Shown here in pieces: positions 30,317-53,779 of a stretch of 64,000 nucleotides of DNA; the stretch's first letter is position 1; every line of letters begins with the position of its first letter. Made by a program: the position numbers and the translations under genes. The notes under the pieces were generated by a model that did not search any database, had not been told where the DNA came from, and was given only the letters and a program-made list of their open reading frames with translations. The DNA is from Candidatus Zixiibacteriota bacterium (lineage in GTDB: Bacteria; Zixibacteria; MSB-5A5; GN15; FEB-12), in the NCBI GenBank assembly GCA_029860345.1, contig JAOUBJ010000004.1, positions 266,943 through 330,942 of the forward strand. Reading direction: 5' to 3'.

Positions 30317-32308
30317 ATGAAGAACTTGCTGAAAAAACTGGCGATTCTAATCGTTGTTGCCCTGTTTGCCGCGGCCGCCTACTATCTGTACGACCAATTC
30401 CGCGAGCGCAGTGTCAACGAACGAATGGCCGAGATAGTTCACGATGAAGACCGTCGGGTGGTATCGGACAAGCTTAAGGGCTATCTTGATGATCCGTCGC
30501 CGGAAGTCCGCGCGCGCGCAGCCATGGCTTTGGGGCGGATCGGTGGTCAGAAAGCAGCCGATCTGCTTTTCGGCATGATCTCCGATGAGTCCATCGATCT
30601 GGCCGGAACGGCCGGGCTGGCCATGGGACTTACCCACCAGTCGCAGTACGCCGGTCGACTTCTGGATGTTGCCCTTGATCTGCCGTCATCGGCCGCGGCC
30701 AAAGTGATTGCATCAGTTGGTCGGTTGGTCGACAGCAGCACAACTGGCGTCACCGAACGGTTGGCGGAATTCCTGGACCATCCCTCGCCGGATGTGCGCG
30801 AAGCCATCTGCTATGCACTCTTGAACGCCAAGGCCAAAGCACAGGCGCCGCTGTTGATAAAACATCTTAAGAGTGAAAGCGACGATTTGGTGCGCGCTGC
30901 TGGACTCTATGCGTTGGCCCGGATGGAGATTGCCCAGGCAAATGATTTGTTTGTCGACAATCTGGCCGACACCGATCCGTTCGTGCGGCAAACCTGCGTG
31001 CGAGGTCTGGGCCGCTCGGGGTCGTCCAAGGTGCTCCATCTGTTGCAAATGTCGCTCAATGACTCTGATCCCAACGTGGTGGCCGAGGCAGTCAATGAAC
31101 TTAGCCGCAGCAAAGACAAAAAAGCAAAAGATCAACTGGCCAAACGGGTCGAGTCCGGCTGGGATGAAAAGCTGATGGGCTCTCTCATGGACGGTCTCAG
31201 GTTGCAGGAAAACAACGAAGCCGTGCAGACAACCTGGGAATTGTTGGAAACCGTCCAGCCGGCCAATGTGACGGCGGCGGCCGCAGTCTACCTGGCCTCG
31301 CGGGTTAAAGACAAAGCGGTCAACCTGCTCGATTCGCTGGCCGCCGAACCGGACCCGTTTTTGCGAAAATCCGCAGCCGAAGGATATGCCTTGATAGCCA
31401 GGAAAAATGTCATCCCGAGACTGGCCGGGCTGTTTAACGACGATGATCCCTGGGTGCGGGCGGCGGCTTTTGCAGGCCTGCTCAAGATCGATAAGAACAA
31501 CCAGGACTATTATATTAAGAAAGCGCTGGCCGATCCGGACTGGGTGCTGCAAACTTTGGCCGTTGATCATATACAGTCCGCGCGGCTTTCATCCTATCTG
31601 CCTCAGTTGAGTGGTATGATGGCGACTGCCTCGGTGTTGGAGATTGATCTGCGCCGGTCGCTGGTGCAGGTGGCTCGCGCCTTTCTCGATCAAGAGACAG
31701 AGAACGCCGACGCCACATTGATACTGATGAACTCCCTGATGGACTCGGAGTACATCGTCAGGCGGGAGGCGGCCATTGTCTACAAGGATGTGCTGGGGGA
31801 GGATCGATTTGGTATAGTCCCTCCGGCCCCGGCCCGCATAGAGATCGACGCTATTCACGAAGGTTTCAAAAAGTACCAGCCTAATCCGTATGCCGTTATC
31901 GGCACCAGCAAAGGTGATGTTGAACTGGAACTGTTCTACGACGTAGCGCCGCTCACCGTCTTGAACTTCATCGAACTGGCCAAGAGCGGGCTTTACGACG
32001 GCCTGGTCTTTCATCGTGTGGTGCCCGGCTTTGTCGTGCAGGGCGGCGACCCGCGCGGGGACGGCTGGGGTGGTCCGCCATGGCAGATACGATGCGAATA
32101 CTCCGGCGAGCCGTACCAGCGCGGCACCGTGGGTATTGCCACCTCCGGCCAGGATACCGGCGGCTCACAGTTTTTCATAACGCTGTCACCCCAACCGCGC
32201 CTGGAAGCGCGCTACACCGTTTTTGGCCAGGTGACCGCTGGTATGGAAGTGGTCGACCAAATCGTGCGCGGTGACCTTATTCAAAAGATAGTCATTCAGG
32301 AAGGTTGA
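30317..32308 (+). CDS. Membrane-anchored HEAT-repeat protein fused to a cyclophilin peptidyl-prolyl isomerase
   Basis: The 663-residue protein has an N-terminal hydrophobic anchor (LLKKLAILIVVALFAAAAYYLY). About 470 residues of HEAT repeats follow (PSPEVRARAAMALGRIGGQKAADLL and similar). A complete cyclophilin domain covers the last 150 residues. Isomerase hallmarks are GLVFHRVVPGFVVQGGD (active-site Arg in FHR), GTVGIATSGQDTGGSQFFIT, and YTVFGQVTAGMEVVDQI. The anchor suggests that the scaffold and isomerase face the periplasm, where it could aid envelope protein folding. The next gene starts three bases after its stop. Confidence 0.9.
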   Translation: MKNLLKKLAILIVVALFAAAAYYLYDQFRERSVNERMAEIVHDEDRRVVSDKLKGYLDDPSPEVRARAAMALGRIGGQKAADLLFGMISDESIDLAGTAGLAMGLTHQSQYAGRLLDVALDLPSSAAAKVIASVGRLVDSSTTGVTERLAEFLDHPSPDVREAICYALLNAKAKAQAPLLIKHLKSESDDLVRAAGLYALARMEIAQANDLFVDNLADTDPFVRQTCVRGLGRSGSSKVLHLLQMSLNDSDPNVVAEAVNELSRSKDKKAKDQLAKRVESGWDEKLMGSLMDGLRLQENNEAVQTTWELLETVQPANVTAAAAVYLASRVKDKAVNLLDSLAAEPDPFLRKSAAEGYALIARKNVIPRLAGLFNDDDPWVRAAAFAGLLKIDKNNQDYYIKKALADPDWVLQTLAVDHIQSARLSSYLPQLSGMMATASVLEIDLRRSLVQVARAFLDQETENADATLILMNSLMDSEYIVRREAAIVYKDVLGEDRFGIVPPAPARIEIDAIHEGFKKYQPNPYAVIGTSKGDVELELFYDVAPLTVLNFIELAKSGLYDGLVFHRVVPGFVVQGGDPRGDGWGGPPWQIRCEYSGEPYQRGTVGIATSGQDTGGSQFFITLSPQPRLEARYTVFGQVTAGMEVVDQIVRGDLIQKIVIQEG

Positions 32309-38456: not shown

Positions 38457-40427
38457 ATGCTTGCGCAAAACCTGGTCGAAAAGATCGCTCAACGATTTGC
38501 CGTGGATCTATCGGATGGACACGTCGTTCACAGCGGTGACTACCTGTCGATTCGTCCTGAGCACATCCTGACCCACGATAACACGGGCGCTGTGATTCCG
38601 AAATTCAAAAGTATCGGTGCCACGAAAATCGCCAACCCGCGCCAGCCGGTCTATGCCCTTGACCACAACGTGCAGGACACAAGCGAAGCCAACATAGCCA
38701 AGTATAAAAAGATCGAATCGTTCGCGCATGAGATGGGTGTGGACTTTTATCCGGCCGGTCGTGGTATCGGACATCAGATCATGTGCGAGGAAGGTTATGC
38801 CTGGCCTCAGACGATGGTGGTGGCTTCGGACAGTCATTCGAATATGTACGGAGGACTTGGGTGTCTCGGCACGCCGATAGTGCGTACCGACGCCGCCGCT
38901 ATTTGGGCCACCGGTCGCACCTGGTGGCAAGTGCCCCCGGTAGCCAAATGCGAACTGCACGGCAGGCTCAAACAGGGTGTTACCGGGAAGGACGTTATCA
39001 TTACGCTGTGCGGTTTCTTCAACTCAGACGAAGTTCTCAACCACGCCATAGAATTCTCCGGCGGCGGCATCGCCTCTCTGTCTCTCGATGAGCGCTTGAC
39101 CATCGCCAACATGACCACCGAGTGGGGCGCTTTGGTGGGACTCTTTCCGGTCGACGAAGTTACTCTCGACTGGCTTGCCCAACGGACATCGCATCTCGCC
39201 CGACGCGGACCGGCCGGGGTGCCGTCGGATGCCGACGGCGATGAAGAAAACGCACGTTTGAACAGTCGGCGACTGGATCAATTGAAGCGGAATGTTTTGG
39301 CTCCCGATAATGATGCGACATACGCCAAACATCTTTCGTTCGATCTTGAGTCTGTGGTACCACACGTTTCGGGGCCGCACAATGTGAAGACGATGACACC
39401 GATCAACGAGATGCGCGCGCGCCGCGTTGCAATTCAGAAGGCCTACCTTGTCTCGTGTGTCAACAGTCGGGTAGACGATCTCGCTCAGGCGGCCGAGGCG
39501 GTGCGCGGAAAACATGTGGCCGAGGGTGTGAAGTTTTACATAGCGGCGGCATCAAGCGAGGTGCAGGCCGAAAGCGAAGGACGTGGTGACTGGCAGGCCC
39601 TTGTGGAAGCCGGCGCTATAGCGCTGTCGCCGGGATGCGGCCCCTGTATTGGTCTTGGTGTAGGCTTGCTCGAAGATGGTGAGACAGGTATCTCGGCCAC
39701 TAATCGCAATTTCAGGGGACGCATGGGTTCCAAGCATGCCGAAGCCTATCTGGCGTCACCTTCGGTTGTGGCTGCCTCGGCTATCGCAGGATACATTGAC
39801 GCGCCTGCTGAGTTTGAAAACACCGGTCCAATAGCTGACATACGCACCAATGAAAAACCGGCTACCGGTTCGGCAGCGGTTTCGATTGTCGACGGTTTCC
39901 CGGTCACAATTGACGGCGACATGATCGCCTGTTTTCAGGATAACCTTAACACCGACGGCATCTATCCCGGCAAGTATACCTACATCGACGATTTCACACC
40001 TCAGCAGCAGGCAGAAGTCGCGATGGAAAACTATGATCCGGAATTCGGCAAACTGGCCAAAGAGGGTGACATTCTGGTGGGTGGGTTTAATTTCGGCACC
40101 GGCAGTTCGCGCGAGCAGGCTGCGACAGCTCTGAAATACCGAGGTATCCGACTGGTGTTGGCCGGTTCGTTCAGCGAAACATACAAACGCAACGCCATCA
40201 ACAACGGCTTCCTGGCTATCGAAGCGCCGGAGCTGGTGCGCGATTTGAGAAACAAGTGCGGCACCGACAAGCTTACGGTCGCTACCGGTATCAAAGCCGC
40301 AATCGACTTCGCTTCAGCCAAGCTTACCGCCGATGGGAAGCAGTACAAACTGGCACCGCTCGGCGCGGCCGCCCAGGAGTTGATCGTCGCCGGTGGGCTG
40401 GAAGCGTGGGTGAAGGAGAGATTGTAG
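38457..40427 (+). CDS. Fused aconitase-superfamily hydratase, Lys4-type homoaconitase-like
   Basis: The 656-residue enzyme of the [4Fe-4S] hydro-lyase family has both the catalytic and swivel domains in one chain. The cluster cysteines appear in VSCVNSRVDDL and GCGPCIG. SDSHSNMYGGLGCLGTPIVR, TGRTWWQVPPVAK, ANMTTEWGALVGLFP and SATNRNFRGRMGS are the pattern I associate with fungal homoaconitase (Lys4) rather than LeuC or standard aconitase. The swivel domain has GGFNFGTGSSREQAATALK. It may act on homocitrate/homoaconitate or a related tricarboxylate. The PrpD-like gene downstream raises methylcitrate as another substrate. Substrate unproven. Confidence 0.85.
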   Translation: MLAQNLVEKIAQRFAVDLSDGHVVHSGDYLSIRPEHILTHDNTGAVIPKFKSIGATKIANPRQPVYALDHNVQDTSEANIAKYKKIESFAHEMGVDFYPAGRGIGHQIMCEEGYAWPQTMVVASDSHSNMYGGLGCLGTPIVRTDAAAIWATGRTWWQVPPVAKCELHGRLKQGVTGKDVIITLCGFFNSDEVLNHAIEFSGGGIASLSLDERLTIANMTTEWGALVGLFPVDEVTLDWLAQRTSHLARRGPAGVPSDADGDEENARLNSRRLDQLKRNVLAPDNDATYAKHLSFDLESVVPHVSGPHNVKTMTPINEMRARRVAIQKAYLVSCVNSRVDDLAQAAEAVRGKHVAEGVKFYIAAASSEVQAESEGRGDWQALVEAGAIALSPGCGPCIGLGVGLLEDGETGISATNRNFRGRMGSKHAEAYLASPSVVAASAIAGYIDAPAEFENTGPIADIRTNEKPATGSAAVSIVDGFPVTIDGDMIACFQDNLNTDGIYPGKYTYIDDFTPQQQAEVAMENYDPEFGKLAKEGDILVGGFNFGTGSSREQAATALKYRGIRLVLAGSFSETYKRNAINNGFLAIEAPELVRDLRNKCGTDKLTVATGIKAAIDFASAKLTADGKQYKLAPLGAAAQELIVAGGLEAWVKERL

Positions 40428-40612
40428 GTAATAAATCACTTTTTTGCGCAACGCGCCGGCCTGTCACCCTGAGCGGAATCGAAGCGTGAAGCAAAAGATG
40501 GACCCCCGCCTGCGAGGGGGTGACAGATGAATGGACTACCATTGTGCCGCGACTCCGACTGGCATGACGGGATAGAGAAGATCAGCAACAAGTAGATAAG
40601 GACAGAAACAGA
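40428..40612. repeat. Repeat mosaic between homoaconitase-like and MmgE/PrpD genes
   Basis: It contains a TAATAAATCACTTTTT motif, GTCACCCTGAGCGGAATCGA near 40461, and CCCCCGCCTGCGAGGGGGTG near 40504, all types that recur in other gaps of the window. The PrpD-like gene's ribosome site AAGGA lies at its end. Confidence 0.7.
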
Positions 40613-41980
40613 ATGGACAAATCAATCTCAAGACAGATAGCAGAGTTTGCACTCGGCCTCAAATACGAAGACCTGCCTGCGGAAGTCATCAACGAAGTAA
40701 AAAGATACCTGTACGATTCGGTCGGCTGCGCCTACGGCGGCTACCACACCAAAGACGTCAACATCCTCCGCGACATTTACAGCGGCATGGGTGGAAAGAA
40801 AGAGGCTTGCCTCCTGGCCTTTGGTGACAAGATGCCGGCGGTGAATGCCACATTGGTGAATTCCCTGATGGTGCGCGCGCTCGATTTCAACGACATTTAT
40901 TGGAAAGAAGACCCTTCGCATCCGTCGGACTTGATACCGGCCGCACTGGCGGTCGGCGAGATGGTCGATGCTTCCATGCACGAAGTTATCGTTGCTATCG
41001 TGCTCGCCTACGAGTTCGAACAACGTATGTGCTTGTTTGCAGTGCCGGGCGTGCGTGAACGTAAATGGCACCACGCCACGCTCACCCAGTTTGTGTCACC
41101 CGTTGTCGCGGGGAGATTGTTGGGTCTCACTGAAGATCAGATGGTGATGGCCATCGGCATCAACGGCTCCCACAATCATACCATCGGTTGTCCGACTGCG
41201 GGCAAGTTGACCATGATGAAGAACACAGTCGACCCGATGGCCGTGCAGTCCGGTGTATTCGCTGCCCTGATGGCACAAAGAGGATACTCAGGCACCGAAG
41301 CTGTCTTCGAAGGCAAGGAAGGTTTCATGGATGTTTTCGGACCCGACTGGGATAACGACCAACTGCTGGCTGGGCTGGGCGAGTCTTACAAGATTCTCGA
41401 ATGTTCCATGAAGGCATTCCCGACCGAGGCGCTGACTCACACCCATCTTTCCGCGACCTTGAATGTTGTGCGCGGCAATAATATTTCGTATGACCAGATT
41501 GAAGAAGTGACCATTACATCTATTGCTCGCGCCTGCGATATCCTCTTCGATCCGCATAAGTATCGCCCGGAGTCGCGCGAGACCGCCGACCATTCGCTAC
41601 CATACTGTATCGCTGCGGCGCTGGTCGACCATCAGATCACCACCAATTCGTTCTCCGACGAGAAACTCAAAGACGAACGCATCTGGTCGGTGATCGACAA
41701 GATCAAAGGGGTGGCGTCAGAAGAGTTCGAAAAGATGTTCCCGGCCAAGCAACCTTCGAAAGTGGTGGTGAAAACGACCGACGGCAAAGAATTCTCGGAG
41801 TATCTGGAATATCCCAAGGGAGACCCGCGCGAGCCGATGACCATGGACGATCTGACGGCCAAGTTCAACGCCTTGTCCGACTCGTTGCTGTCTGCCGACC
41901 GTCAGCGTGAGATCAAGGATACTATTTTCGCCTGCGAGAACATGAACGTCCGGGACCTCATGCAGAAGTTTGTGGTGTAG
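40613..41980 (+). CDS. MmgE/PrpD-family dehydratase
   Basis: The 455-residue protein matches the MmgE/PrpD family, which includes 2-methylcitrate dehydratase and cis-aconitate decarboxylase. Recognisable segments are KRYLYDSVGCAYGGY, NSLMVRALDFNDIYWKEDPSHPSDLIPAALAVGE and KAFPTEALTHTHLSATLNVV. Next to an aconitase-type hydratase it could supply the dehydration half of a methylcitrate- or homocitrate-like isomerisation. That link is inferred from neighbourhood only, and 185 bases of repeats separate the two genes. Confidence 0.88.
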   Translation: MDKSISRQIAEFALGLKYEDLPAEVINEVKRYLYDSVGCAYGGYHTKDVNILRDIYSGMGGKKEACLLAFGDKMPAVNATLVNSLMVRALDFNDIYWKEDPSHPSDLIPAALAVGEMVDASMHEVIVAIVLAYEFEQRMCLFAVPGVRERKWHHATLTQFVSPVVAGRLLGLTEDQMVMAIGINGSHNHTIGCPTAGKLTMMKNTVDPMAVQSGVFAALMAQRGYSGTEAVFEGKEGFMDVFGPDWDNDQLLAGLGESYKILECSMKAFPTEALTHTHLSATLNVVRGNNISYDQIEEVTITSIARACDILFDPHKYRPESRETADHSLPYCIAAALVDHQITTNSFSDEKLKDERIWSVIDKIKGVASEEFEKMFPAKQPSKVVVKTTDGKEFSEYLEYPKGDPREPMTMDDLTAKFNALSDSLLSADRQREIKDTIFACENMNVRDLMQKFVV

Positions 41981-42073
41981 AGAGCAATGCATCGCGGGAA
42001 CATTGCTGTAGAATAGTCAACATTGTCATGCCGAGCGCTGTCGAAGCATGCGCGCTGTCGGCGCATGAACAAG
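41981..42073. repeat. Palindromic repeat between convergent genes
   Basis: GTCATGCCGAGCGCTGTCGA near 42027 and GCGCGCTGTCGGCGC follow the PrpD-like gene. The first is a variant of the CTGAGCGGAGTCGAAGCATG repeats elsewhere. Confidence 0.6.
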
Positions 42074-43060
42074 CTAAGCGTTATCCACCCACTTGTTAAC
42101 CAGCACAACGTGGATGGAATGAGCGTCGGAGTCCGCGCGCAACTCAAACGCTTCCTGGGCACGATCCATGGGGAACACATGAGTGCGCAAACGTTCCAGC
42201 GGTAACCTGCCATCAATGGTCAACTGCAACGCTTGTTGCCACAGACGACGTGTCTCTCTAACCCCGGTGACAAACATCCCCTCTTTGATCAGCGAAATGT
42301 TCTTACGGTGCATCGCATAGAGGTCCAGCTGTGCTTCCGATTGAAGTCCGCCATAGAAAACAATCCGCCCTCGTTCGCGCATGAGCGGCACTATGTGATT
42401 GATTGCATCCGAGCCGGGCGTGGCAATGATGGCGACATGAAAACCGTCCGGGTAGAGTTTCCGAAGTTCATCGGCACCAACGTCCGACTTCAGCGCCACT
42501 GTAGCCTGGGCGCCAAACTGCTCAGCCAGATCGAGTTTCACCGGGTCCGGATCGACCACCACCAACCGGCGGCAGCCATGAAGAGACACGACTCGTGTCA
42601 GCAACAGGCCGCTCAGACCCTGGCCGACGATGAGCACCTCACTGTTTGCATTGATACCGGTGCGCTCGGCGGCCATCATAACGCCCGGCATGGCCTCCAT
42701 CAGACATCCTTCCCGAAGGTCCATGGTTGGCGGTAGTTTCAGCATGTGAGCGGGCCGTGCCAACACGAAATCGGTCAGACAACCCCAGGTCTGGACCGCG
42801 CTCACTTGGTCGCCAGCGACGAATCCCGAAACATGGTCGCCCACCCGGTCGACAACACCCGATACTTCGTGACCGATCACCGGATGACTGAGCCTCTTCG
42901 GTGCTTCTCTTTGGCCGGTGAAAACCTCGAGATCGGAGCCACAGATACCGACACATCCAACCCGAATCCGTACTTGGCCCGCAGCAGGCAGCGGCACCGG
43001 AACACTTATTGTCTGCAAACGGTGCGGACGTTCAAGAATGTGGAGGAGCATGGATGTCAT
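42074..43060 (-). CDS. Zinc-dependent medium-chain dehydrogenase (MDR family)
   Basis: The 328-residue oxidoreductase is the last gene of a six-gene minus-strand operon. The catalytic zinc motif GCVGICGSDLEVF (Cys) and SHPVIGHEVSGVVDRVG (His-Glu) are present. The four-cysteine structural-zinc loop is missing and replaced by QVSAVQTWGCLTDFVLA. The NAD(P) fold shows VLIVGQGLSGLLLTRVVS and a following VVVDPDPVKLDLAEQFGA, whose acidic residue favours NAD. The start at ATG 43060 gives MTSMLLHILERP and lies 19 bases after the upstream gene. The alcohol or polyol substrate is unknown. Confidence 0.88.
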   Translation of the reverse strand: MTSMLLHILERPHRLQTISVPVPLPAAGQVRIRVGCVGICGSDLEVFTGQREAPKRLSHPVIGHEVSGVVDRVGDHVSGFVAGDQVSAVQTWGCLTDFVLARPAHMLKLPPTMDLREGCLMEAMPGVMMAAERTGINANSEVLIVGQGLSGLLLTRVVSLHGCRRLVVVDPDPVKLDLAEQFGAQATVALKSDVGADELRKLYPDGFHVAIIATPGSDAINHIVPLMRERGRIVFYGGLQSEAQLDLYAMHRKNISLIKEGMFVTGVRETRRLWQQALQLTIDGRLPLERLRTHVFPMDRAQEAFELRADSDAHSIHVVLVNKWVDNA

Positions 43061-43079
43061 CGTACACTGATTATTCGAG

Positions 43080-45119
43080 TCACTGGTGATCGGTCCAGAG
43101 AGAAACAAGGGCCTCCAACAAAACGTCGATGCCCGCTTCGACCGCTTCAATGCATCCGAACGACAGCCGAAGAAATCGGCGAGGTATCCGAGCTTGCAGA
43201 GACACCGGGAAAAACGATTCGTCGGCCATGACCCGTATCGAATGCTCCCTGGCCAGGTGCTCCGCTATGTGGCGGGGTGTCAGCCCGGACCGTTGGCACA
43301 GTTTGTCAATATAGATCATCACGTAGAAACCGTGTTCGTGCGTTGCAACCAGTTCCATTCCATGTTCGGCCAGATCTGCTTGTCTAAGAGTATTCCAGGC
43401 GAGCTGTTTTCGGTTGCAGATGGTCTCAGCGATTTGGCTGGGTCCATCGGCGTGGTGCATCAGCAGGTAATGCAGAAACGTTTGCTTGATACTGGATGGC
43501 AGCAGCGACTGCCCGCTTTTCACCGCTCGCAATGCTGCCGAGAGTTCACGGTTGTAGGTAAAGGCAAATCCCAGTCGCAACCCGGGCATGCCCCAGGTTT
43601 TGGAAACACTGTCGCAATAAACTGTACGCTGTGGGTCCAAAGCCGCCAGCCCCGCTTGTTGATCCGAGGTATCCTCAAAACTGTGGTAGGCGATATCGGC
43701 GATGATGCCGCACTGCCGACGTTGTGCCAGGCGGTTGATAGCCACGGCCTCCGAGGCAGTCAGTACCCAACCCATAGGATTGTGTGGACTGTTAACAATG
43801 ATAGCACCAACGTGTGCCTCTGTACGCTCCAATGCGCTTATAAAGTCGGTCATGTTGTAGGCCGTTATAGGCAGACTATCCTGCCGAGCGGCCGCCGTGA
43901 TGGACCAATAAGGATAGGCGGGGACGGCATAGGCAATGGCGTGGCGACCGCTGTGCAGCGAAGGTCCTGCGAGAACCGAAACGGCGGTATAGATAGCATT
44001 GTGACAACCATCGAAGGCGGTGATGGCAACGTCTTTAAGCTCAGTGGAGCCGAGGAATCGATTGTAGCCGGCGGCCAGTTGTTCGAACAATGTATTCAAT
44101 CCAGCCGTCCCGCCGTACTTAAGCATGCGCTCACCGGGGCCACCGGAGTCAATGAACTCTTTATACCACCTGACGAGGTTGACACCCTCGACACCTTTGA
44201 TCTCGCCCAAACCGAAGTCATGTCGGATCACATTTGCCCTTTGGTTGGTGCCGAGATACTGTCCGTAGAAATGCGCAACGTTCAAGTCGTCCAATCGCCG
44301 GGCGACATCGGGGCTGATAGGCGCTTTGGTTCCGACGGACTCTCCGAAAGCACGACCCTTTGTTGCCGGTCGTTCAGCCGACGGATAATAATAGTCAACC
44401 AATGGTTCGGCCAGGTGATGGATGCTGTCGACACCGTAGACGTCGATCACCCGTTGGACGAGATCGAGATCGTTGTGTCGTCGATAGGGCCGCCGTGAAC
44501 CCTGGTACCAGTTGATGTTCTCTCTGCTTGGATGTTCGGTACGCCAGAGACAGCCGAGTCCGGCAAAGATACTCGACCGATGCATGATTTCATTGGTATC
44601 GATGTAAATCTCATAGCCCAGCTTCGACGGTTCAAGCTTCTCGTACGAAAACAGCGTGGTAGTTTCATCGTGGCTGACCAACCGACGCTTGTCGATACTG
44701 ATCACATGCCGGCATTCCTCAGCCGAATGATGATTGGTCGAATCACAGTGAACGAGCATGATACTGTCATCATCAATCAGGATGGCCCCTAATTTCTCCA
44801 GAAAGCATGCCGACCAGCTGTTATCGGCATCGAGGTAGGCGATGAAAGTTCCGCGCGCAATCCTCAGGCCGTCGTTGCGCGGTTCCCACCTAATCAGCGC
44901 TTGGCGGCTGTTCTCGGGGTTCTGTATGACCTTGATCCGCTTATCGACCGACGCATAACTCATCATGATTGACAAAGTGGCGTCGGTAGAGGCGTCATCA
45001 ACCAGAATGAGCTCGAATAGATCGTGCGTCTGCGCCAGCACGCTTTCAATCGCATCGGCCAGAACAGCTTCTTCATTGTAAGCCGGCATAATGACGCTAA
45101 TCAACGGCTGTGTTATCAT
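43080..45119 (-). CDS. Fusion of a family 2 glycosyltransferase and a class I/II PLP aminotransferase
   Basis: The 679-residue chain joins two enzymes. Residues 1 to about 270 are a GT-A fold glycosyltransferase: PLISVIMPAYNEEAVLADAI, LILVDDASTDATL, and the metal-site-like AYLDADNSW. From about 325 to the end is an aspartate-aminotransferase-fold enzyme with NSPHNPMGW (substrate/PLP Asn), ADIAYHSF (Tyr), CDSVSKTWGMPGLRLGF (PLP Lys in SVSK) and the carboxylate-binding Arg in FLRLSFG. Both halves look intact. I know no named protein with this architecture. The frame is continuous, so it is not two genes. It lies 16 bases after the decarboxylase gene. Confidence 0.9.
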   Translation of the reverse strand: MITQPLISVIMPAYNEEAVLADAIESVLAQTHDLFELILVDDASTDATLSIMMSYASVDKRIKVIQNPENSRQALIRWEPRNDGLRIARGTFIAYLDADNSWSACFLEKLGAILIDDDSIMLVHCDSTNHHSAEECRHVISIDKRRLVSHDETTTLFSYEKLEPSKLGYEIYIDTNEIMHRSSIFAGLGCLWRTEHPSRENINWYQGSRRPYRRHNDLDLVQRVIDVYGVDSIHHLAEPLVDYYYPSAERPATKGRAFGESVGTKAPISPDVARRLDDLNVAHFYGQYLGTNQRANVIRHDFGLGEIKGVEGVNLVRWYKEFIDSGGPGERMLKYGGTAGLNTLFEQLAAGYNRFLGSTELKDVAITAFDGCHNAIYTAVSVLAGPSLHSGRHAIAYAVPAYPYWSITAAARQDSLPITAYNMTDFISALERTEAHVGAIIVNSPHNPMGWVLTASEAVAINRLAQRRQCGIIADIAYHSFEDTSDQQAGLAALDPQRTVYCDSVSKTWGMPGLRLGFAFTYNRELSAALRAVKSGQSLLPSSIKQTFLHYLLMHHADGPSQIAETICNRKQLAWNTLRQADLAEHGMELVATHEHGFYVMIYIDKLCQRSGLTPRHIAEHLAREHSIRVMADESFFPVSLQARIPRRFLRLSFGCIEAVEAGIDVLLEALVSLWTDHQ

Positions 45120-45135
45120 GATATCATTCTTGAGG

Positions 45136-46689
45136 TCACGAATGCCGACTTGCTGTGTCGTTTCCGATGGCGATGACCGCGTCCAGACAGTCGCGCACGA
45201 TGTCGAAAGTGTTATCAGGATTGCCGAACATCATACGCAAAGGATGGATCGTTGCGCGAGAGTCACTCACCGCGTTTTCATCGTCCTGCGCCGGAAATGT
45301 ATGCAAAAAGTATTCGGTTTCGTGGTTGAGTTTTCGATGGATCTCCTGGTTCAGTTCGTTCAGTGCGGAAGTGTCTCGCCAACGGTCACCGGGAGGACGA
45401 TACATGAAAGCCACGGCGTTGTGCTGCACCTCGGAATTGATGAGAACCAAGTCGGGATGATCGCGGACGATTGTGGAGGCTTGCAAAGCCAGTTCATGAC
45501 GGTGATCGATCTCCGAAGCAAGGCGCGCCCAACCGAAGTGCTTGAGCATGAACCAGAGCTTCAGCGCCATGAAACTCTTGCTGCCGATTACCGGCGTAAA
45601 CGAACCAAACGACTCCTCGCCCATTTTTATGACTGTCGCGCCCGAGGTGACGTAGGACAAGTGGGACGGATCATGAAGAAAGAACAGGCTGAGATTGTAG
45701 GGCACCATCAGAACCTTGTGCGGATCGAGAGAAACACTTTGAGCGGCTTCGAGCCCATCGTGCAGATGGGAGCGGTTGGGACTGAACAAACATTGACAAC
45801 CCTGGCAGGTATCGACATGAACCCACAACCCGTACCGAGCCGCGATATCTGTAATTGTTCTCAAATCGTCAAAGGCCATCATGCGGCTGTCGCCGGCAAC
45901 GGCAAAGATGCACATGATTTCCTCACCGCGTGAGAGCACCCGTTCGATTTGTCTGGGAAGATCGCCAGTGTCCATGCGGAAGTTCTTCGTCTCGACATCG
46001 CAAAGAGCCTCTTCTTCGAGACCAAGATCGGTACGCTGTGCGGCGGTCAAATCACGATTGCCAAGTCCGAGCATGTAAAGCGAACGTCTTAGCGAGTAGT
46101 GGGTAAAGGGGCGGTTGCCCAGCACGCGCACGCGTCTGGGCTCATAGATGCGGTTTTCCTTGGCCAGCCTCGCCCTTAGATTCTCTCTCGCCGCCAGTAG
46201 ACAGCTGTAATTGGCATTCGATCCGCCGAAAACAAAGGCGCCACCGGCATCCGAGGCATAGCGCCCGTTCTCACGACAGGGAAACCCGGTGAGCTTTCGC
46301 AACTGTTGCAACAACTGCAATTCCAGGTCCGTGGCCATCGGCGAGAACTCTTTACTGGCCAGATTCTGCTGAAGAAAGGCCGAGGCCAGATCACCGGCAA
46401 CGGCAGCCACAGAGTTGCCACAATCGGGATGGGCGAGAAACGTTCGTGAACCGAAGTTAAGAGAAAACTGCATGACGTGCTGCTCAAACTGGTCAATGAT
46501 GTCACCCAGCGGCTCTCCATCTTTCGTTACCTCAGCGGCGCGGCGCATAGCATCAACATCAGTCGGAGTCGCCTTGGCGGGCAATGAAGGCCCCTGCTTG
46601 AAAGAGCAACAGACCTCGATTAACTTGCGAAACTGGTCGGTGACAAACGATTTTTCCGCGGAGCTCAACACCACCGGTTCTCTTGCCAT
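45136..46689 (-). CDS. Group II PLP-dependent amino acid decarboxylase
   Basis: The 517-residue protein has the fold of glutamate/aromatic amino acid decarboxylases, which release CO2 from an L-amino acid to give an amine. The PLP lysine is in SLDPHKVLM, the PLP-ring Asp in LWVHVDTCQG, and the cofactor-binding region in AFVFGGSNANYSCLLAARE. The middle is unusual, with cysteines in HVDTCQGCQCLF. I placed the start at ATG 46689, with an AAAGGA ribosome site four bases before it. The frame extends to 46764 into the upstream gene. The substrate cannot be inferred; its operon partners suggest the amine is further modified. Confidence 0.88.
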   Translation of the reverse strand: MAREPVVLSSAEKSFVTDQFRKLIEVCCSFKQGPSLPAKATPTDVDAMRRAAEVTKDGEPLGDIIDQFEQHVMQFSLNFGSRTFLAHPDCGNSVAAVAGDLASAFLQQNLASKEFSPMATDLELQLLQQLRKLTGFPCRENGRYASDAGGAFVFGGSNANYSCLLAARENLRARLAKENRIYEPRRVRVLGNRPFTHYSLRRSLYMLGLGNRDLTAAQRTDLGLEEEALCDVETKNFRMDTGDLPRQIERVLSRGEEIMCIFAVAGDSRMMAFDDLRTITDIAARYGLWVHVDTCQGCQCLFSPNRSHLHDGLEAAQSVSLDPHKVLMVPYNLSLFFLHDPSHLSYVTSGATVIKMGEESFGSFTPVIGSKSFMALKLWFMLKHFGWARLASEIDHRHELALQASTIVRDHPDLVLINSEVQHNAVAFMYRPPGDRWRDTSALNELNQEIHRKLNHETEYFLHTFPAQDDENAVSDSRATIHPLRMMFGNPDNTFDIVRDCLDAVIAIGNDTASRHS

Positions 46690-46717
46690 ACTGTCCTTTC
46701 GCATCGATCCAAAACCA

Positions 46718-47737
46718 TCATACGATCGCTCTGCCGCGATGAATATCCGGATTCCTGCAAACATCTTTGATCAACTGTTCCGCCGCCAGAAGCTCAGGCA
46801 CAGTGGTGAACTTATGGGCAAAGGCTTCCTCGGCGCCGGTATCCAACAGCGTAATCGCACCCAAACGCGGCAGCAGCAACATGTACTCCACCGCTTCTGC
46901 GTTCTTGTCGTCAATATCATGCTCGTATACATCACGCACGATTCGACGAGCGCGATTCATAGTTTCCTCAGTTACACCCCCGGTAGCGAGAATCATGAAC
47001 ATACAGACAATTCGGCCGGCCAACGGATGCCACATTAGTTTCTCAAAGTCAATCAGATACAATCTGCCGTTTTCGACAATGCTGTTTTTGACTTCCGCGT
47101 CGAGATTACCGTACATCCATGTGTCCCTGGAAAACGAACGGTTGGCCCCGGTAATCAGATCATCAAAGATGCGTGACTCATGATCGCTGAATTCGGCGTG
47201 TGGCTTTCGGAGGATGTCCTGAGTTAAAAAACGCAGAATATAATCTCGGTAGAACTGTTCGAACGGGCGTGGGTCCGGCTGTGGCGGGTCTCTGAGTTCT
47301 CGCAGGTGGTGATTGGCTTGTTTGTGGCTGGTGCACAGTCGTTGTAGATACTGTTCCTGTTGGGCGGCGTCCAGGTCTTCCATGACTTCCAACAGAGACC
47401 TGCCGGACAGACGCTCCATAACAAAGAACCTGTGTCGATCACAACAAGCCACAATCTCAGGAACGTCCAGGCCATGCCGGTGCAAGAGCGTCAACGCGGC
47501 TTTGTCGTTCTGATACGACCGTTCATGGTCAAGTTGGTCATTGGGGCGGAACCACTTGAGGATGAATCGATCATCGATTTGAAAGAGCTGGTTGCGCGAG
47601 TCACCATCGACAAAGCGAATAGGCACAACCGTTGTTCCCCATGGCATGCAGCCGTGATGCTCTGTGGTGACGCCGAGACTGTCGGCATCGGTGAGATTCT
47701 CGGGGCAGAGTTCAGTGTGGAGGCAGTTGAACTTCAT
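46718..47737 (-). CDS. APH/choline-kinase-fold phosphotransferase-like protein with altered catalytic motif
   Basis: The 339-residue protein has the aminoglycoside-phosphotransferase fold. An N-lobe with FILKWFRP (ATP-binding Lys) is followed by the hinge FFVMERLSGRSLLEVM, and the C-lobe has LYLIDFEKL (metal-binding Asp at about 230). The usual catalytic loop HGDLHxxN reads YGNLDAEVKN (209-218). The catalytic Asp is therefore Asn211, which predicts loss or change of kinase activity. It sits between the decarboxylase and the membrane protein gene, suggesting that it handles the same amine product or a sugar. The DFE motif argues that nucleotide binding is retained. Confidence 0.8.
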   Translation of the reverse strand: MKFNCLHTELCPENLTDADSLGVTTEHHGCMPWGTTVVPIRFVDGDSRNQLFQIDDRFILKWFRPNDQLDHERSYQNDKAALTLLHRHGLDVPEIVACCDRHRFFVMERLSGRSLLEVMEDLDAAQQEQYLQRLCTSHKQANHHLRELRDPPQPDPRPFEQFYRDYILRFLTQDILRKPHAEFSDHESRIFDDLITGANRSFSRDTWMYGNLDAEVKNSIVENGRLYLIDFEKLMWHPLAGRIVCMFMILATGGVTEETMNRARRIVRDVYEHDIDDKNAEAVEYMLLLPRLGAITLLDTGAEEAFAHKFTTVPELLAAEQLIKDVCRNPDIHRGRAIV

Positions 47738-47785
47738 TTGGTGCGTCTTATCATTGTCTTGTCAATGGTCGACCGCGGTAATCCA

Positions 47786-49528
47786 TCACTGGCCGCTACC
47801 TTTGTTTTGAAGTGAGGCGGCGGCCTCAGCGTGATGTTGCGCCTTGACGACATCACCGGTCTGTTCATACAGACGGCTCAGCATCAGGTGCGCCTGAACC
47901 AGAGTGAAATCCAAATCCACGGCTTTGGCCAACACCACAGCGGCGGTATCAAATTGCTGCTTTCGAAGCAAGCATGTCCCCAGATTCAGGTAGCCGAGCG
48001 CAAATTCCGGATTGAGCATGATCGCCTGCGTAAACTCACTCTCAGCTTTATCATGCTCACCGACTCTTTGATAAACGCTGCCCAGATCGCTATGGATCTC
48101 CGGTGAAGTGGGGTTCAAAGCCAGTGCGGCTGCGAATTCTTCGATTGCTTCCCGCCACATGCCGCGGCCGACATAGGTGGTACCCATTGTGCGATGAGCC
48201 AGGAACGTTTGGGTGGCATCAGGATGTTGCTGTACGACCGACTGCAACAACGCCACCTGTGAATCCCAGTCACGATTTCTGTCCACCGTTAGCACCGAGT
48301 AGGTACCCACGATGGCTACCATCGCGGTAGTTGCAGCAAGCCGCCACCTGAGTCCGCTGAGCGCAAGGGCGCCCTCGACAAACGGACTGGTGAGCACCAA
48401 AGCGAGCACCAAACAGAAGCCAAGTGAAGGAAGATACAAGTAACGTTCGGCCAGTAGTGGACCTTCTTCGAGCGCCACCAGATTGGAAATGGGCAATAGT
48501 GACAGAATGACCCAGGCAATGCCGAACGAAAGCAGGCGACTGCGACGCCACAACCAGACGACGGCAGCCAACAACAATACAACAAGCAGCATTGGGCCGG
48601 CTGTGGGTGGATCGTTGAGCGAACGCGACCAGTTGAAGTCGAAGATCAATGCATAATTGAGATCATAAGGCAGAAGTAGCTTCCAGATGTGCTCGGAGTA
48701 TGTGCGCGTCATGGTGAGAGCCTGCACACCCCAGCCCACCTGTTTACTCATCAGCGACGAAGCCGCGCCGGCCATGCCCTGCGCCCCAAGGTAGATGACA
48801 CCGATGACCACAGCGGGCGCCAGCGGATAGATAAACTTCGAAATCCAGCCTTCACCCTGGGGTCGGGGTCGGAAATATATTTCATAGGTCAGCCAGATCA
48901 ACGGCGCTGAGATGGCAGCCTCTTTGGACATCAGAGCCAGAAGGAAACATACGATCGCCGCCCAGTAGTGACGATACGACCCGACGCCGTCGGGCTTTCG
49001 AAACTTCATATAGAACACAAGTGATGCCAGGAAGAAGACGGCCATGATTACATCGGTTCGTCCGGCGATGTAGGCCACAGCTTCGGTATGTACCGGATGG
49101 GTGGCGAACAGTATGGCCGCCACCAAGGCTGTCAGTCGGTTCGTCAACAGCCGGAAGACGACGAAAAACACGAGCAATACCGCCGTGCAATTGAGAGCAA
49201 CGTTGGTGACATGAAAGCCGGTCGAGTTGGCGCCCCACAGATAGTAGTCGATCACGTTGAGCGTATAAGGGATCGGTCGGTATTGACCACCACTGGGGAC
49301 AAAAAGACGGCTGATCAGAGTGGCGAAATCGGTATCATCCACCCACGATGTATCTTGCCACCTGAGTAGGTCGGCCGACAAAAAAGCTCCGGTCAAACTG
49401 TTGGCATAAACACCGAACGACACCAAGAGCAATAACAGTATACATGCCCACAAGGGGGCAGTGTCAGCTAACTTCTCAAGGTCCATGCCGATACCGACTT
49501 GTGGGTGTGCCCTACTGTTGGGATCCAT
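47786..49528 (-). CDS. TMTC-like polytopic membrane protein with C-terminal TPR repeats
   Basis: The 580-residue protein has about ten membrane helices. LLLLLVSFGVYANSLTGAFL is followed by a first-loop DDTDF and the typical YRPIPYTLNVIDYYLWG and HPVHTEAVAYIAGRTDVIMA motifs of TMTC/GT-C-like proteins. From about 430 it has TPR units (EAIEEFAAALALNPTSPEIHSDLGSVY; YLNLGTCLLRKQQFDTAAVV). Relatives are O-mannosyltransferases or membrane glycosyltransferases of unknown donor. The gene overlaps the end of the upstream nucleotidyltransferase-like gene by 17 bases. It suggests a membrane glycosylation step for this operon. Confidence 0.82.
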   Translation of the reverse strand: MDPNSRAHPQVGIGMDLEKLADTAPLWACILLLLLVSFGVYANSLTGAFLSADLLRWQDTSWVDDTDFATLISRLFVPSGGQYRPIPYTLNVIDYYLWGANSTGFHVTNVALNCTAVLLVFFVVFRLLTNRLTALVAAILFATHPVHTEAVAYIAGRTDVIMAVFFLASLVFYMKFRKPDGVGSYRHYWAAIVCFLLALMSKEAAISAPLIWLTYEIYFRPRPQGEGWISKFIYPLAPAVVIGVIYLGAQGMAGAASSLMSKQVGWGVQALTMTRTYSEHIWKLLLPYDLNYALIFDFNWSRSLNDPPTAGPMLLVVLLLAAVVWLWRRSRLLSFGIAWVILSLLPISNLVALEEGPLLAERYLYLPSLGFCLVLALVLTSPFVEGALALSGLRWRLAATTAMVAIVGTYSVLTVDRNRDWDSQVALLQSVVQQHPDATQTFLAHRTMGTTYVGRGMWREAIEEFAAALALNPTSPEIHSDLGSVYQRVGEHDKAESEFTQAIMLNPEFALGYLNLGTCLLRKQQFDTAAVVLAKAVDLDFTLVQAHLMLSRLYEQTGDVVKAQHHAEAAASLQNKGSGQ

Positions 49529-50891
49529 CCTGCACTGCCTGCATCAGTGAACCGCACTGCTTAAGCTGTTGACGGCGGTTGGTAGCTTTGTGTACGATCG
49601 CCCGCAAGCCGTAGAACACCAACATGGTAAAGACTATGGTGCACAAAGTGGTGGCCTTTGCCACGCGACGAATGTAATCAAAACAGAGAAGCCATCCCGT
49701 CCTGCCATAGCGTCGGGCGACCGATTCCCGCGATGGTAAAATATACGCGCCGATATCCAAAAACTTTACCGCCCGAAAGTGTGTCATGGGATGTTCTCTG
49801 GTCAAGATAGATCGAAGTCGTTTGGCCACCGTCCCGGTTGATCGACCCGTTGATCCGGGGCGACCGAGCAACAGTGGGTAGAGTACGCTGGTGAGGCGAC
49901 CGGGCGGTGACGGCTTCAACATGGCTACCGGCTTTTGGACCAGTGAGGCGCCGAACAGTTTTCCCAAACTTTCGAGCGTGCAACGCACCTCTGCCTGGAC
50001 ACCCCATTGGTAACATCGATCAAAAATCACATTCCAGTTCATGGACTTCTGCGTTTGTTTAAGCAACAGCAGGATTTCCAGGTACCACAACAGTTTCACC
50101 TGGCTTTCGGTGCTCAGGATTTCCTCAGCCCGGATCGACGAGAAGTCCCGCACGTATCGGCTGAAACAACTATGCTTATCGACATGGTAGCACAGATAAA
50201 TCAACAGGTCTTCGTGGTTCATGATCCGAACAGGGCGGTCATCGAAAGACCATTCTTCAGAACGTTGCCAGACTCCCTCGGTATCGATATGCAAAACCCG
50301 GTATCGATCCTGTAGCGCCCAGTGCAACTCGACCACTATCGGCACCTTGCTACGGGGTTGGTGAACGAAACTCAGGTGGAAGTGTACGAAATGATAGAAC
50401 CGCCTGGGGGCCGACTCGGCTTCGCAAGCAAATCCATGTTTTGTCAGCAGGGCGTCGGCTCGCGACATGTCCTCTTTTCGGACAAGCAAATCGATATCGG
50501 CCATTGGTCGCCAAGCCATATCCTGGAACACCGTGCGGGCCATGTACAGCCCTTTGAGTATCATGCAATCAATTGAAAGTTCTTTGAAAGATTTGGCCAG
50601 GCTCGACAGATGGTTGGCCAGGTCCAGATTGCGCGCACGGTTTTCTTCATAGATCGAGTCCAACACAGACCGAACCGTCTCGGGAATCCGCTCATCGTTG
50701 AGGCGGCTGAAGAGCGAATGCATCATCGGCGTCATCCGGTGGTGATTACCCAACGCCATCAGTCGACCCCAGTCCACCCCCGCGGACAAACATCGGCCAA
50801 CTCGATCCTCTCTGGGCGGATCATTCAACAGGTCGGCCAAACTGATCAAGAGTTGTTCTTCTGTCGACAGCATAGTCTCAAATACCACCAT
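49512..50891 (-). CDS. Uncharacterised nucleotidyltransferase-like protein (PF14907 type)
   Basis: The first gene of the six-gene operon encodes 459 residues. The nucleotidyltransferase core shows MILKGLYMARTVFQ and the metal-site-like MADIDLLVRKEDMSRADALL, then HFHLSFVH and VELHWALQDRY; this pattern fits the PF14907 family. Relatives are often found beside peptide natural-product or polysaccharide loci. A hydrophobic C-terminal helix (TTLCTIVFTMLVFYGLRAIV) suggests membrane anchoring. Donor and acceptor are unknown. An ATG at 50873 is an alternative start. Confidence 0.8.
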   Translation of the reverse strand: MVVFETMLSTEEQLLISLADLLNDPPREDRVGRCLSAGVDWGRLMALGNHHRMTPMMHSLFSRLNDERIPETVRSVLDSIYEENRARNLDLANHLSSLAKSFKELSIDCMILKGLYMARTVFQDMAWRPMADIDLLVRKEDMSRADALLTKHGFACEAESAPRRFYHFVHFHLSFVHQPRSKVPIVVELHWALQDRYRVLHIDTEGVWQRSEEWSFDDRPVRIMNHEDLLIYLCYHVDKHSCFSRYVRDFSSIRAEEILSTESQVKLLWYLEILLLLKQTQKSMNWNVIFDRCYQWGVQAEVRCTLESLGKLFGASLVQKPVAMLKPSPPGRLTSVLYPLLLGRPGSTGRSTGTVAKRLRSILTREHPMTHFRAVKFLDIGAYILPSRESVARRYGRTGWLLCFDYIRRVAKATTLCTIVFTMLVFYGLRAIVHKATNRRQQLKQCGSLMQAVQDGSQQ

Positions 50892-51340
50892 GACCTGGTC
50901 ATGTCGGCAGGTTTTAAGTCGATTCGGTTTATCCGAAACGGAAATGACGGCCCTCAGAAATCCCCGCCCTATGGAATTAGACAGGATGGGACAAAGAATC
51001 CGGCGAGCTACTTCCGGCCGCTGTGGTTTGAATATAATACCGAGCGCGAGATTTCCAAAGGTCCATTTGTGGACTTCAGTTCGTCCAGGCAGTCGAGGGA
51101 TTCATGAGCACGGCCACCAATGGCTTCCACTTGCCATCCACGAGCATAAGGCCATCCAACCCGGCAACACGGAGTCCTTTCTTTTGAAACTAAGTAGAGG
51201 CTGTAAACATTCCGATAACAGTCATAACGTTGACGAAAGCCGCCGCCGGTTCTGTCGGTGAATTGTGGCTGCTGTCTTGACACCTTCGCAAACGCCTGTA
51301 TATTGCGGGCAAACAGGAACCAGCCGGTTCCGGAGGACAC
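50892..51340. other. Divergent intergenic region, no gene recognised
   Basis: This 449-base gap lies between the start of the minus-strand operon and the plus-strand HYR protein gene. Small open frames occur but none has a ribosome site or recognisable product. The plus-strand promoter at 51277 lies in it. I saw no precursor-peptide gene and no member of the window's palindromic repeats. Confidence 0.5.
51277..51304 (+). promoter_or_regulatory. Sigma70-like promoter for the HYR/dockerin protein
   Basis: TTGACA (51277-51282), a 16-base spacer and TATATT (51299-51304) lie 36 bases before the GTG start. Confidence 0.65.
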
Positions 51341-53779
51341 GTGAGACCGCATCTTGCCCTGCTTTTATTGATTCTGATCGTCGAACCAGTCGGCGCTCAG
51401 GTTAGTATCAGGATCGCCCGACCGACACCGGTACCCCTGGCCACACAAGTGACCATTCCTGTTTCGCTCGACAACCCTTTGGGCGATTTTGAGATGGGTG
51501 GATTTGACCTGCTGTTGACATACGACGCAGGCTTCACGTTTCAAACCGTGAACAGCGGTCAGCTTCTGGATAGTTGCGGATGGGAGTACTTCACACACCA
51601 ACATGGCGCTATTAACGATGTCCGCCTGGTGGCCATCGCCGACATCAACAACGGCCCCAACCATCCCACATGTTATGGCGACAGTGTGGGTACGCTGGCC
51701 GAATTGGTTCTGATAACGCCGTTCGATTCCTCCTATACCGGGACCTTTCTGCCCATTAGATGGATCTGGTACGATTGTGGCGACAACAGCGTGTCATCTC
51801 GCGGTGGCGACAGTTTGTGGATTTCAAAGGAAGTCTACGAATTCGACGGCACCGATGAATTCCCGATCTCGCAAGATACTTCGTTTCCCAGTCTGTTTGG
51901 AGCGCCCGAAATATGCCTCTATGAGGAGCAGGGCAATATCATTCGCCTCGTAGATTTTCACAACGGCGGCGTGATCGTTTCAGCCATAGATACCATACCA
52001 CCGGTGATCCAATGCTTCGAAAACATAATCGTCGACAACGAAACCGGACAGTGTGGAGCTGAGGTTACTTTTGATATCACCGCCGTCGATAATCTGCCGG
52101 GCGTGAGCATCCAGTGTCTTCCGCCGTCCGGTGCCTGGTTTGACATCGGTGTCACCGTTGTCACCTGCATAGCTACTGACATCGGCGGCAATGTCGACAG
52201 TTGCAATTTCCTGGTCACGGTGCGTGATGTTGAACCGCCTACATCGGTTTGTCCTCCGGATATGACGGTACCGACCGATCCCGGCATGTGCGGAGCCGTT
52301 GTGTATTTTACTCCGGCCGCTTTGGACAATTGTCCCGGGGCGATTGTATCGGCCACCCCGGCTTCCGGTTCGTACTTTGCCGAAGGCACCACCACGGTCG
52401 GATGTCTGGCCCGCGACAGTTCCGGAAATGTGAACGTCTGCTTCTTTGACATTACCGTCGTGGATACCGAGCCGCCGGGTAGCAACTGCCCGTCGGAAAT
52501 CACGGTTTTCAATGAACCGGGCGAGTGCTCGGCCGTTGTTGAGTTCGATGCGTCGGTCAGTGACAACTGTGAGGCATCGATACTATGTGCTCCCCCGTCG
52601 GGAGGCAGTTTCCCGGTCGGCAGTACCACCGTGACCTGTATTGCCGTCGATCGTACACAGAACGGTGACACCTGTTACTTTGACATCGTCGTGGTCGACA
52701 CGCAGCCCCCGATCCTTGAGATTACGAGTGACACCGTGGTGGCCAATAATCCAGGTGAATGTCACGCCGTTGTCTCGTTCGCCGCAAGCGCATCGGACAA
52801 CTGTCCCGGGGTTGAGATACTATTCGATCCCCCGCCGGGATCATTGTTTGGGATGGGCACGACAGCCGTCCAGGCCGTGGCAACCGACGCCTCCGGACTG
52901 GTCGACAGTGGACAGTTCAACGTGATCGTGGTTGACTTGGAACCGCCGGTCATACTCTGTCCGAGCGATGTTTCTGTGGTCAACGACTCCGGTTACTATG
53001 GTGCTGTTGTCCACGCTCACCTCTTTGCCAGTGACAACTGTAGCCAGGTGACGACTTCAACCGATCCGCCGTTCGGCACCCTCTTTGAGATCGGTACGAC
53101 CACCGTTACCGCGACGGCGATTGATTCTGCAGGCAACACCGACACCTGCTACTTCAACGTCACGGTTCTTCTCAACGATCCGGACAACGACAGCCTGCCC
53201 GACTGGGACGACAACTGTCCCTCCGTGTCAAATCCCGATCAGGACGATACCGACAGCGACAACATCGGCGATGCTTGCGACAACTGTCCCGACGCGGCCA
53301 ACGCTTCGCAGAGTGATAGTGACATTGATGACGTGGGAGACGCTTGCGACAATTGCCCGGAAGCAGCCAATGCCGACCAGGCCGATCTCGACAACGACAC
53401 AGTCGGTGATGCCTGTGACCCGTGCCCCAACGATCCGGCTAACGACGTCGATAGCGACACGGTGTGCGGCGATGTCGACAATTGTCCCCAGACACCGAAT
53501 GCGAATCAATCCGACACCGACAATGACGGCGTCGGCGACGCTTGTTGCTGCCTGCACCGAGGCGACATCGACCACCAGGGTGGCGCCTCACCTATCGACA
53601 TATCTGATTTGGTTTGGATGGTAGACTACATGTTTTCAGGCGGCCCGGCACCGGGCTGTCCGATAGAGTCCGATGTTGACGCCGGCGGCGGTTCATCGGT
53701 TGACATATCCGATTTGGTCTATCTCGTCGACTTCATGTTTTCAGGCGGCCCGCCGCCGCCGGTTTGCCCCACAATTTGA
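51341..53779 (+). CDS. Secreted protein with cohesin-like module, HYR repeats, TSP3 repeats and dockerin
   Basis: The 812-residue protein starts at GTG 51341, five bases after a GGAGG ribosome site, with signal peptide MRPHLALLLLILIVEPVGA. Residues of about 20-210 form a cohesin-like module (MGGFDLLLTYDAGF; SLWISKEVYEFDG; RLVDFHNGGVIV) homologous to one in the protein at 16483-19242. Five HYR (hyalin) repeats of about 80 residues follow, each with DTEPP or DNCP and TTTVTCIAxD-like strands. Thrombospondin-3 calcium repeats (DDTDSDNIGDACDNCPDA) and two dockerin-like loops (DISDLVWMVDYMFSGGPAP; DISDLVYLVDFMFSGGPPP) end it. It is probably structural or adhesive. Confidence 0.9.
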   Translation: MRPHLALLLLILIVEPVGAQVSIRIARPTPVPLATQVTIPVSLDNPLGDFEMGGFDLLLTYDAGFTFQTVNSGQLLDSCGWEYFTHQHGAINDVRLVAIADINNGPNHPTCYGDSVGTLAELVLITPFDSSYTGTFLPIRWIWYDCGDNSVSSRGGDSLWISKEVYEFDGTDEFPISQDTSFPSLFGAPEICLYEEQGNIIRLVDFHNGGVIVSAIDTIPPVIQCFENIIVDNETGQCGAEVTFDITAVDNLPGVSIQCLPPSGAWFDIGVTVVTCIATDIGGNVDSCNFLVTVRDVEPPTSVCPPDMTVPTDPGMCGAVVYFTPAALDNCPGAIVSATPASGSYFAEGTTTVGCLARDSSGNVNVCFFDITVVDTEPPGSNCPSEITVFNEPGECSAVVEFDASVSDNCEASILCAPPSGGSFPVGSTTVTCIAVDRTQNGDTCYFDIVVVDTQPPILEITSDTVVANNPGECHAVVSFAASASDNCPGVEILFDPPPGSLFGMGTTAVQAVATDASGLVDSGQFNVIVVDLEPPVILCPSDVSVVNDSGYYGAVVHAHLFASDNCSQVTTSTDPPFGTLFEIGTTTVTATAIDSAGNTDTCYFNVTVLLNDPDNDSLPDWDDNCPSVSNPDQDDTDSDNIGDACDNCPDAANASQSDSDIDDVGDACDNCPEAANADQADLDNDTVGDACDPCPNDPANDVDSDTVCGDVDNCPQTPNANQSDTDNDGVGDACCCLHRGDIDHQGGASPIDISDLVWMVDYMFSGGPAPGCPIESDVDAGGGSSVDISDLVYLVDFMFSGGPPPPVCPTI

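Follow-up and report, generated by a model that had tools for sequence, protein, structure and literature searches.

Six minus-strand genes in the genome of a Candidatus Zixiibacteriota bacterium (4.76 Mb, 35 contigs) form a lineage-specific biosynthetic island between prpD and the gene for a secreted HYR protein, within the 64,000-nucleotide stretch of DNA analyzed here (the window). The block brings together enzymes of ordinary kinds, each part varying on a known one, in a set that is undescribed, and its most surprising parts are a GT2 glycosyltransferase-aminotransferase fusion and a PLP enzyme from a decarboxylase clade that lacks a tyrosine. With a probability of roughly 0.3, we favor a pathway that would run from an amino acid to an aldehyde (or other non-amine product), then to an alcohol, and on to a glycoconjugate, over one that yields an amine headgroup; we infer its reactions, substrates, and order of steps.

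Layout and setting of the island

The layout of the six-gene minus-strand operon was as originally predicted: all six frames across 42074–50891 are open, intact, and co-directional, with gaps of no more than 48 bases. Taking the best-supported starts, the spacings are −17 for g6/g5 (or +25 with an alternative start), +48 for g5/g4 (the largest), +13 to +28 for g4/g3, +16 for g3/g2, and +19 for g2/g1. An overlap of −47 between g4 and g3 arises only with an over-long g3 start, and one of −71 between g2 and g1 needs a TTG start at 43150, whereas the ATG at 43060 fits the fold. As these long co-directional frames match the remainder of the window in GC3 and codon usage, we take them to be genes rather than chance frames. 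Pfam confirmed five of the six domain classes that had been predicted; the exception was g4, for which the claimed APH fold drew no profile match and the usual catalytic Asp reads Asn.

Table 1. Positions of the six genes and of the island in the window
Feature	Position	Strand	Basis
g6: PF14907 (NTP_transf_5) nucleotidyltransferase-fold protein, 459 aa	49512–50891	−	Pfam, motifs, hydropathy
g5: ~10-TM membrane protein with C-terminal TPRs, TMTC/PMT-like glycosyltransferase (GT-C) by resemblance	47786–49528	−	Pfam, TM windows
g4: orphan protein of 339 aa, motifs ordered as in kinases/APH	46718–47737	−	Motif order
g3: PLP group II "decarboxylase" family protein without catalytic-loop Tyr	45136–46764	−	Pfam, tree, alignment
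g2: GT2 glycosyltransferase fused to class I/II aminotransferase	43080–45119	−	Pfam, one frame
g1: zinc MDR dehydrogenase, sorbitol/threonine dehydrogenase-like	42074–43060	−	Pfam, PDB
Island, approximate extent	41985–51289		Comparison with same-genus genome G043

The limits of the island were set by an empty site in a same-genus genome, G043, where prpD is followed by the HYR-protein gene and then DUF1028, and the six genes are absent between the first two, which lie ~195–246 bp apart. The prpD product is 89% and the HYR protein 57% identical to its counterpart in the window. The G043 locus aligns to window positions 40594–41979 and then 51290–53416, with ~195 bp between, and the ~9.3 kb separating prpD from the HYR gene in the window is taken up by the six genes, with nothing further of note. 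In three other genus members with contigs continuing past prpD, neither the HYR gene nor any operon gene follows. Given this empty site and the near absence of homologues in the phylum, the six genes arrived together (or were lost in other lineages) and were not pieced together from homologues dispersed nearby. The codon usage, being native, speaks against their having come very recently from a donor of different composition, and recent foreign DNA was not supported by composition, as GC3 is native too. No tRNA or strong repeats were found flanking the island. A defense island was also considered and rejected, the PADLOC models giving only a weak, generic TPR match.

The surrounding genes were annotated as well. 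The MmgE/PrpD protein (40613–41980, plus strand) adjoins a single-chain homoaconitase-like protein (38457–40427, plus strand; TIGR00139, 855 bits against a cut-off of 530), the gene for which lies downstream of an HD-domain protein gene; in four more genomes of the genus, an aconitase-like and an MmgE/PrpD gene lie side by side or close together. On the far side, the HYR gene (51341–53779, plus strand) encodes a secreted protein with HYR domains and a TSP_3 repeat, and has a promoter-like site, TTGACA/TATATT, at 51277–51304 with a close counterpart at the G043 empty site. Elsewhere in the window, we noted a plus-strand frame for a 1592-aa protein with no Pfam match at E 1e-6 (5753–10531) and a HEAT-repeat protein fused to a cyclophilin-type prolyl isomerase (30317–32308, plus strand).

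We then searched for a second copy of the set. Across 132 genomes of the phylum, the g2 fusion and g4 are present in this genome only, g6 has one distant match elsewhere, and relatives of g3 are 24–33% identical and, within short flanks, unlinked to the other five genes. The fusion was searched for in these genomes, in 247 Bacteroidota genomes, and by a pattern scan of 84,980 species genomes, and the g3 profile in 346 Actinomycetota and 396 Acidobacteriota genomes. No second fusion was found in the pattern scan, which returned matches to the GT2 half only, nor in the viral scan or the Bacteroidota; in plasmids, matches to the GT2 and aminotransferase halves were separate. The Actinomycetota genomes held no member of the g3 clade at E 1e-60, the 20 g3-profile matches inspected in Acidobacteriota were ordinary Tyr-bearing decarboxylases, and the viral scan had no match to the g3 profile. 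The six genes were thus not seen traveling together a second time in the phylum, Bacteroidota, Actinomycetota, Acidobacteriota, or the 84,980-genome scan, and neither were homologues scattered singly among relatives, where they are mostly absent. The prediction that no described cluster has this set stands, with a whole-set match in none of the collections searched and no description of the gene combination or the fusion found in the literature searched.

A PLP enzyme clade without the loop tyrosine

The g3 protein, with a probable start at 46704 or 46689, matches Pyridoxal_deC (PF00282) in Pfam at E 5e-46 and contains the motifs AGDSR and HVDTCQG. The PLP Lys (Lys350), the Asp of HVD, and the ring-stacking His of HYS all align with the family, and with the Lys, Asp, and His192-equivalent kept, g3 should still bind PLP. 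The mobile loop differs: at PLP-Lys+29, where Tyr is expected, g3 has Ile379. A MAFFT alignment had placed Tyr371 in the catalytic column, but only by way of an 8-residue gap; we rejected this assignment, since gap-free comparison with clade mates and the constant Lys+29 spacing both give Ile. A single-sequence AlphaFold model of g3 had a pLDDT of 40, too low to be of use.

Better relatives of g3 than any in the phylum (~110 bits) are encoded on plasmids of Streptomyces and Nocardia, at 30–33% identity and ~185–210 bits by tblastn. In a tree of 43 proteins, g3 falls in a single clade with three proteins from actinobacterial plasmids, on a long branch and with 100/100 support. All four clade members have Ile at PLP-Lys+29, while Tyr stands at +29 or +30 in each of the 39 other relatives sampled. 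The clade also shares AGDSR where the others differ and H-x-D-x-C-x-G where most of them have HVDAAYG or similar, and the GTT and DAA/AAYG motifs have changed together with the loop Tyr. In the group II decarboxylases that have been characterized, the quinonoid receives its proton from this Tyr; with Phe in its place, plant AAADs, mammalian DDC, and human HDC act as decarboxylation-dependent oxidative deaminases and give off aldehydes (PMC11308512; PMC7497351). The residue in g3 is Ile rather than that Phe. Ile is likewise no proton donor, and an amine is not the product expected of g3. This challenges the amine product originally predicted, because the g3 clade lacks the loop Tyr needed for simple decarboxylation to an amine. 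We know of no characterized example of Ile at this loop position.

One alternative is that g3 is an ordinary amino-acid decarboxylase after all, and that the amine it makes receives a sugar and a phosphate and is attached at the membrane. Among solved structures, its closest relatives are decarboxylases of acidic and diamino acids, the PLP-binding residues are in place, and the part of the loop Tyr might be played by another residue; we nevertheless regard this as unlikely, given that an otherwise universal Tyr is replaced throughout the clade and in none of the other relatives, and that two further motifs are altered with it.

Neighbors of the plasmid relatives echo the enzyme kinds of the window, though they are not orthologues. 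On one Streptomyces plasmid, the g3 relative is directly followed by a HisC-like class I/II aminotransferase, with an MFS exporter also adjoining; this aminotransferase resembles g2 only at the superfamily level and is missing beside the other Streptomyces copies. On the plasmids of Streptomyces NBC_00963 and NBC_00455, the gene for the Tyr-less PLP enzyme overlaps an NTP_transf_2 nucleotidyltransferase gene, and an APH-family phosphotransferase lies beside it on the opposite strand. No similarity was found between g4 and the phosphotransferase beside a Streptomyces g3 relative.

The fusion protein and the remaining genes

The 679-aa product of g2 carries both Glycos_transf_2 (residues 8–135, E 2.6e-28) and Aminotran_1_2 (residues 314–654, E 5e-24) in a single frame. 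Its GT2 half has DDAS at 41 and DADN at 97; its aminotransferase half has NSPHNP at 443, DIAYHS at 475, SVSKTWG with the PLP Lys at 504, and RFLRLSFG at 648. The best NCBIfam model for the latter half is GntC, which with VioD and others belongs to the class I/II cyclizing aminotransferases, at 95.7 bits against a cut-off of 415. We discarded the idea that GntC points to guanidino-amino acid chemistry: the same model scores 244 bits on an unrelated aminotransferase from a phosphonate cluster, so the g2 match carries little meaning. As a separate observation, Agrobacterium plasmid pAt2 (NZ_CP048517.1) has a phosphonate cluster of PEP mutase, a class I/II aminotransferase, a phosphocholine cytidylyltransferase-like protein, and a CDP-alcohol phosphatidyltransferase, which suggests that it makes a phosphonolipid.

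The g1 protein appears from its sequence to be a dehydrogenase of the polyol/threonine type, with ADH_N and ADH_zinc_N matches in Pfam, the motifs GICGSD (Cys), GHEVSG (His-Glu), and LMEAM (Glu), a probable ATG start at 43060, and PDB matches to 1pl6 and 2dq4 (E 1e-21 to 2e-22). For g4, there was no meaningful Pfam match even at E up to 10, no kinase-like family, no match in phages or plasmids, and no relevant PDB match. Its assignment as a putative APH fold comes only from the order of four motifs, ILKWF, VMERLSG, YGNLDAEVKN, and LIDFEK: YGN at 209–211 replaces HGD, placing Asn at the usual catalytic Asp, and LIDFEK at 228 may bind metal. The single-sequence AlphaFold model of g4, with a pLDDT of 36, was likewise too poor to use. 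Both g5 and g6 look membrane-bound. In g5 (probable start 49528 or 49486), Pfam found a weak PMT match at residues 85–205 (E 8e-7) and TPR_2 (E 7.5e-20), alongside 10 TM-like windows. Finally, g6 matches NTP_transf_5 over profile positions 3–249 of 249 (E 6e-50), has DID at 132–134, VVELHW at 186, and one C-terminal TM-like segment near residue 414, and gave no PDB match.

The best matches of the GT2 half of g2 are the capsule and exopolysaccharide glycosyltransferases TuaG, EpsE, and GalT1. Together with the membrane-bound appearance of g5 and g6, and with the co-ordinated loss of the Tyr, GTT, and AAYG motifs in the g3 clade, these matches speak for a reading in which g3, with its group II decarboxylase fold, acts as a lyase or by transamination or substitution, or does some such other chemistry, and an amino acid-like group is added to a surface glycan by the operon. 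That we consider doubtful, since the sequence profile of g3 still prefers GAD/CSAD decarboxylases over lyases, and the block comes without genes for sugar-nucleotide synthesis or for a flippase or polymerase. A split into two unrelated, abutting transcription units (the membrane pair g6-g5 and the metabolic set g4-g1), or a set in decay, is improbable: although the largest gap falls between g5 and g4, the g4 kinase motif looks degenerate, and conserved co-occurrence was not found elsewhere in the 132 phylum genomes, every frame is intact, all six run in one direction at close spacing and show native codon usage, and the empty site lacks the block as a whole.

Proposed working and relation to known systems

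We prefer the aldehyde route over an amine headgroup on the strength of the Tyr-to-Ile exchange in the g3 clade and the known switch to aldehyde synthase caused by Tyr-to-Phe. In this pathway, g3 would decarboxylate an amino acid and, lacking the Tyr that reprotonates the quinonoid, release an aldehyde in an oxygen-dependent, aldehyde synthase-like reaction, or another non-amine product. Use of oxygen is plausible, as the genome carries a heme-copper oxidase. The g1 enzyme would reduce the aldehyde to an alcohol, or oxidize a sugar or polyol precursor; the aminotransferase half of g2 may make or consume the amino-acid substrate, or aminate a keto precursor, and the GT2 half would glycosylate the product. 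The remaining proteins, g4, g6, and the TPR membrane protein g5, could then activate the conjugate and attach or export it at the membrane; attachment at the membrane is a guess from g5 and the C-terminal helix of g6.

A point for the aldehyde route is that the relative of g3 on a Streptomyces plasmid also directly precedes a class I/II aminotransferase. Against it, the known switch is to Phe and not to Ile; Tyr371, 8 residues before the loop position, or some other residue could supply the proton; the genomes searched have no second operon that would bear out a joint role for the six genes; and g4 is an orphan that may be inactive. Tentatively, then, a Tyr-less prokaryotic group II PLP clade may oxidize an amino acid decarboxylatively, or act on it by other non-amine chemistry, with the GT2-aminotransferase fusion linking this step to the making of a glycosylated metabolite or surface headgroup of a new class. 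Joined in the island are a single-chain glycosyltransferase-aminotransferase, itself rare, and a PLP enzyme from a clade that lacks the proton-donor Tyr and is common to this lineage and actinobacterial plasmids.

Several parts of the island resemble known systems. With its ~10 TM segments, C-terminal TPRs, and weak PMT match, g5 is like the TMTC/PMT-type GT-C proteins with TPRs; its first-loop acidic motif is SAD, and FDD is usual in that type. In its full-length match and DxD motif, g6 is like the PF14907 nucleotidyltransferases, a family so far uncharacterized, so that membership tells little about function. The best NCBIfam matches of g3 are the L-2,4-diaminobutyrate decarboxylase RhbB (NF052646; 121.6 bits, cut-off 900) and PanP (TIGR03799; 113.3 bits, cut-off 606.1), from which it differs in scoring far below both cut-offs and in missing the loop Tyr. 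The aldehyde synthases PAAS, 4HPAAS, and DHPAAS of plants and insects belong to the same group II PLP family as g3, and those of plants resemble it in having lost the quinonoid-protonating Tyr of the mobile loop. They differ in the substitution, which is Tyr to Phe in plants or His192 to Asn in insects, compared with Tyr to Ile and changed GTT and AAYG motifs in g3. Should the clade prove to make aldehydes, prokaryotes would have their own equivalent of these plant and insect enzymes, arrived at through a different substitution.
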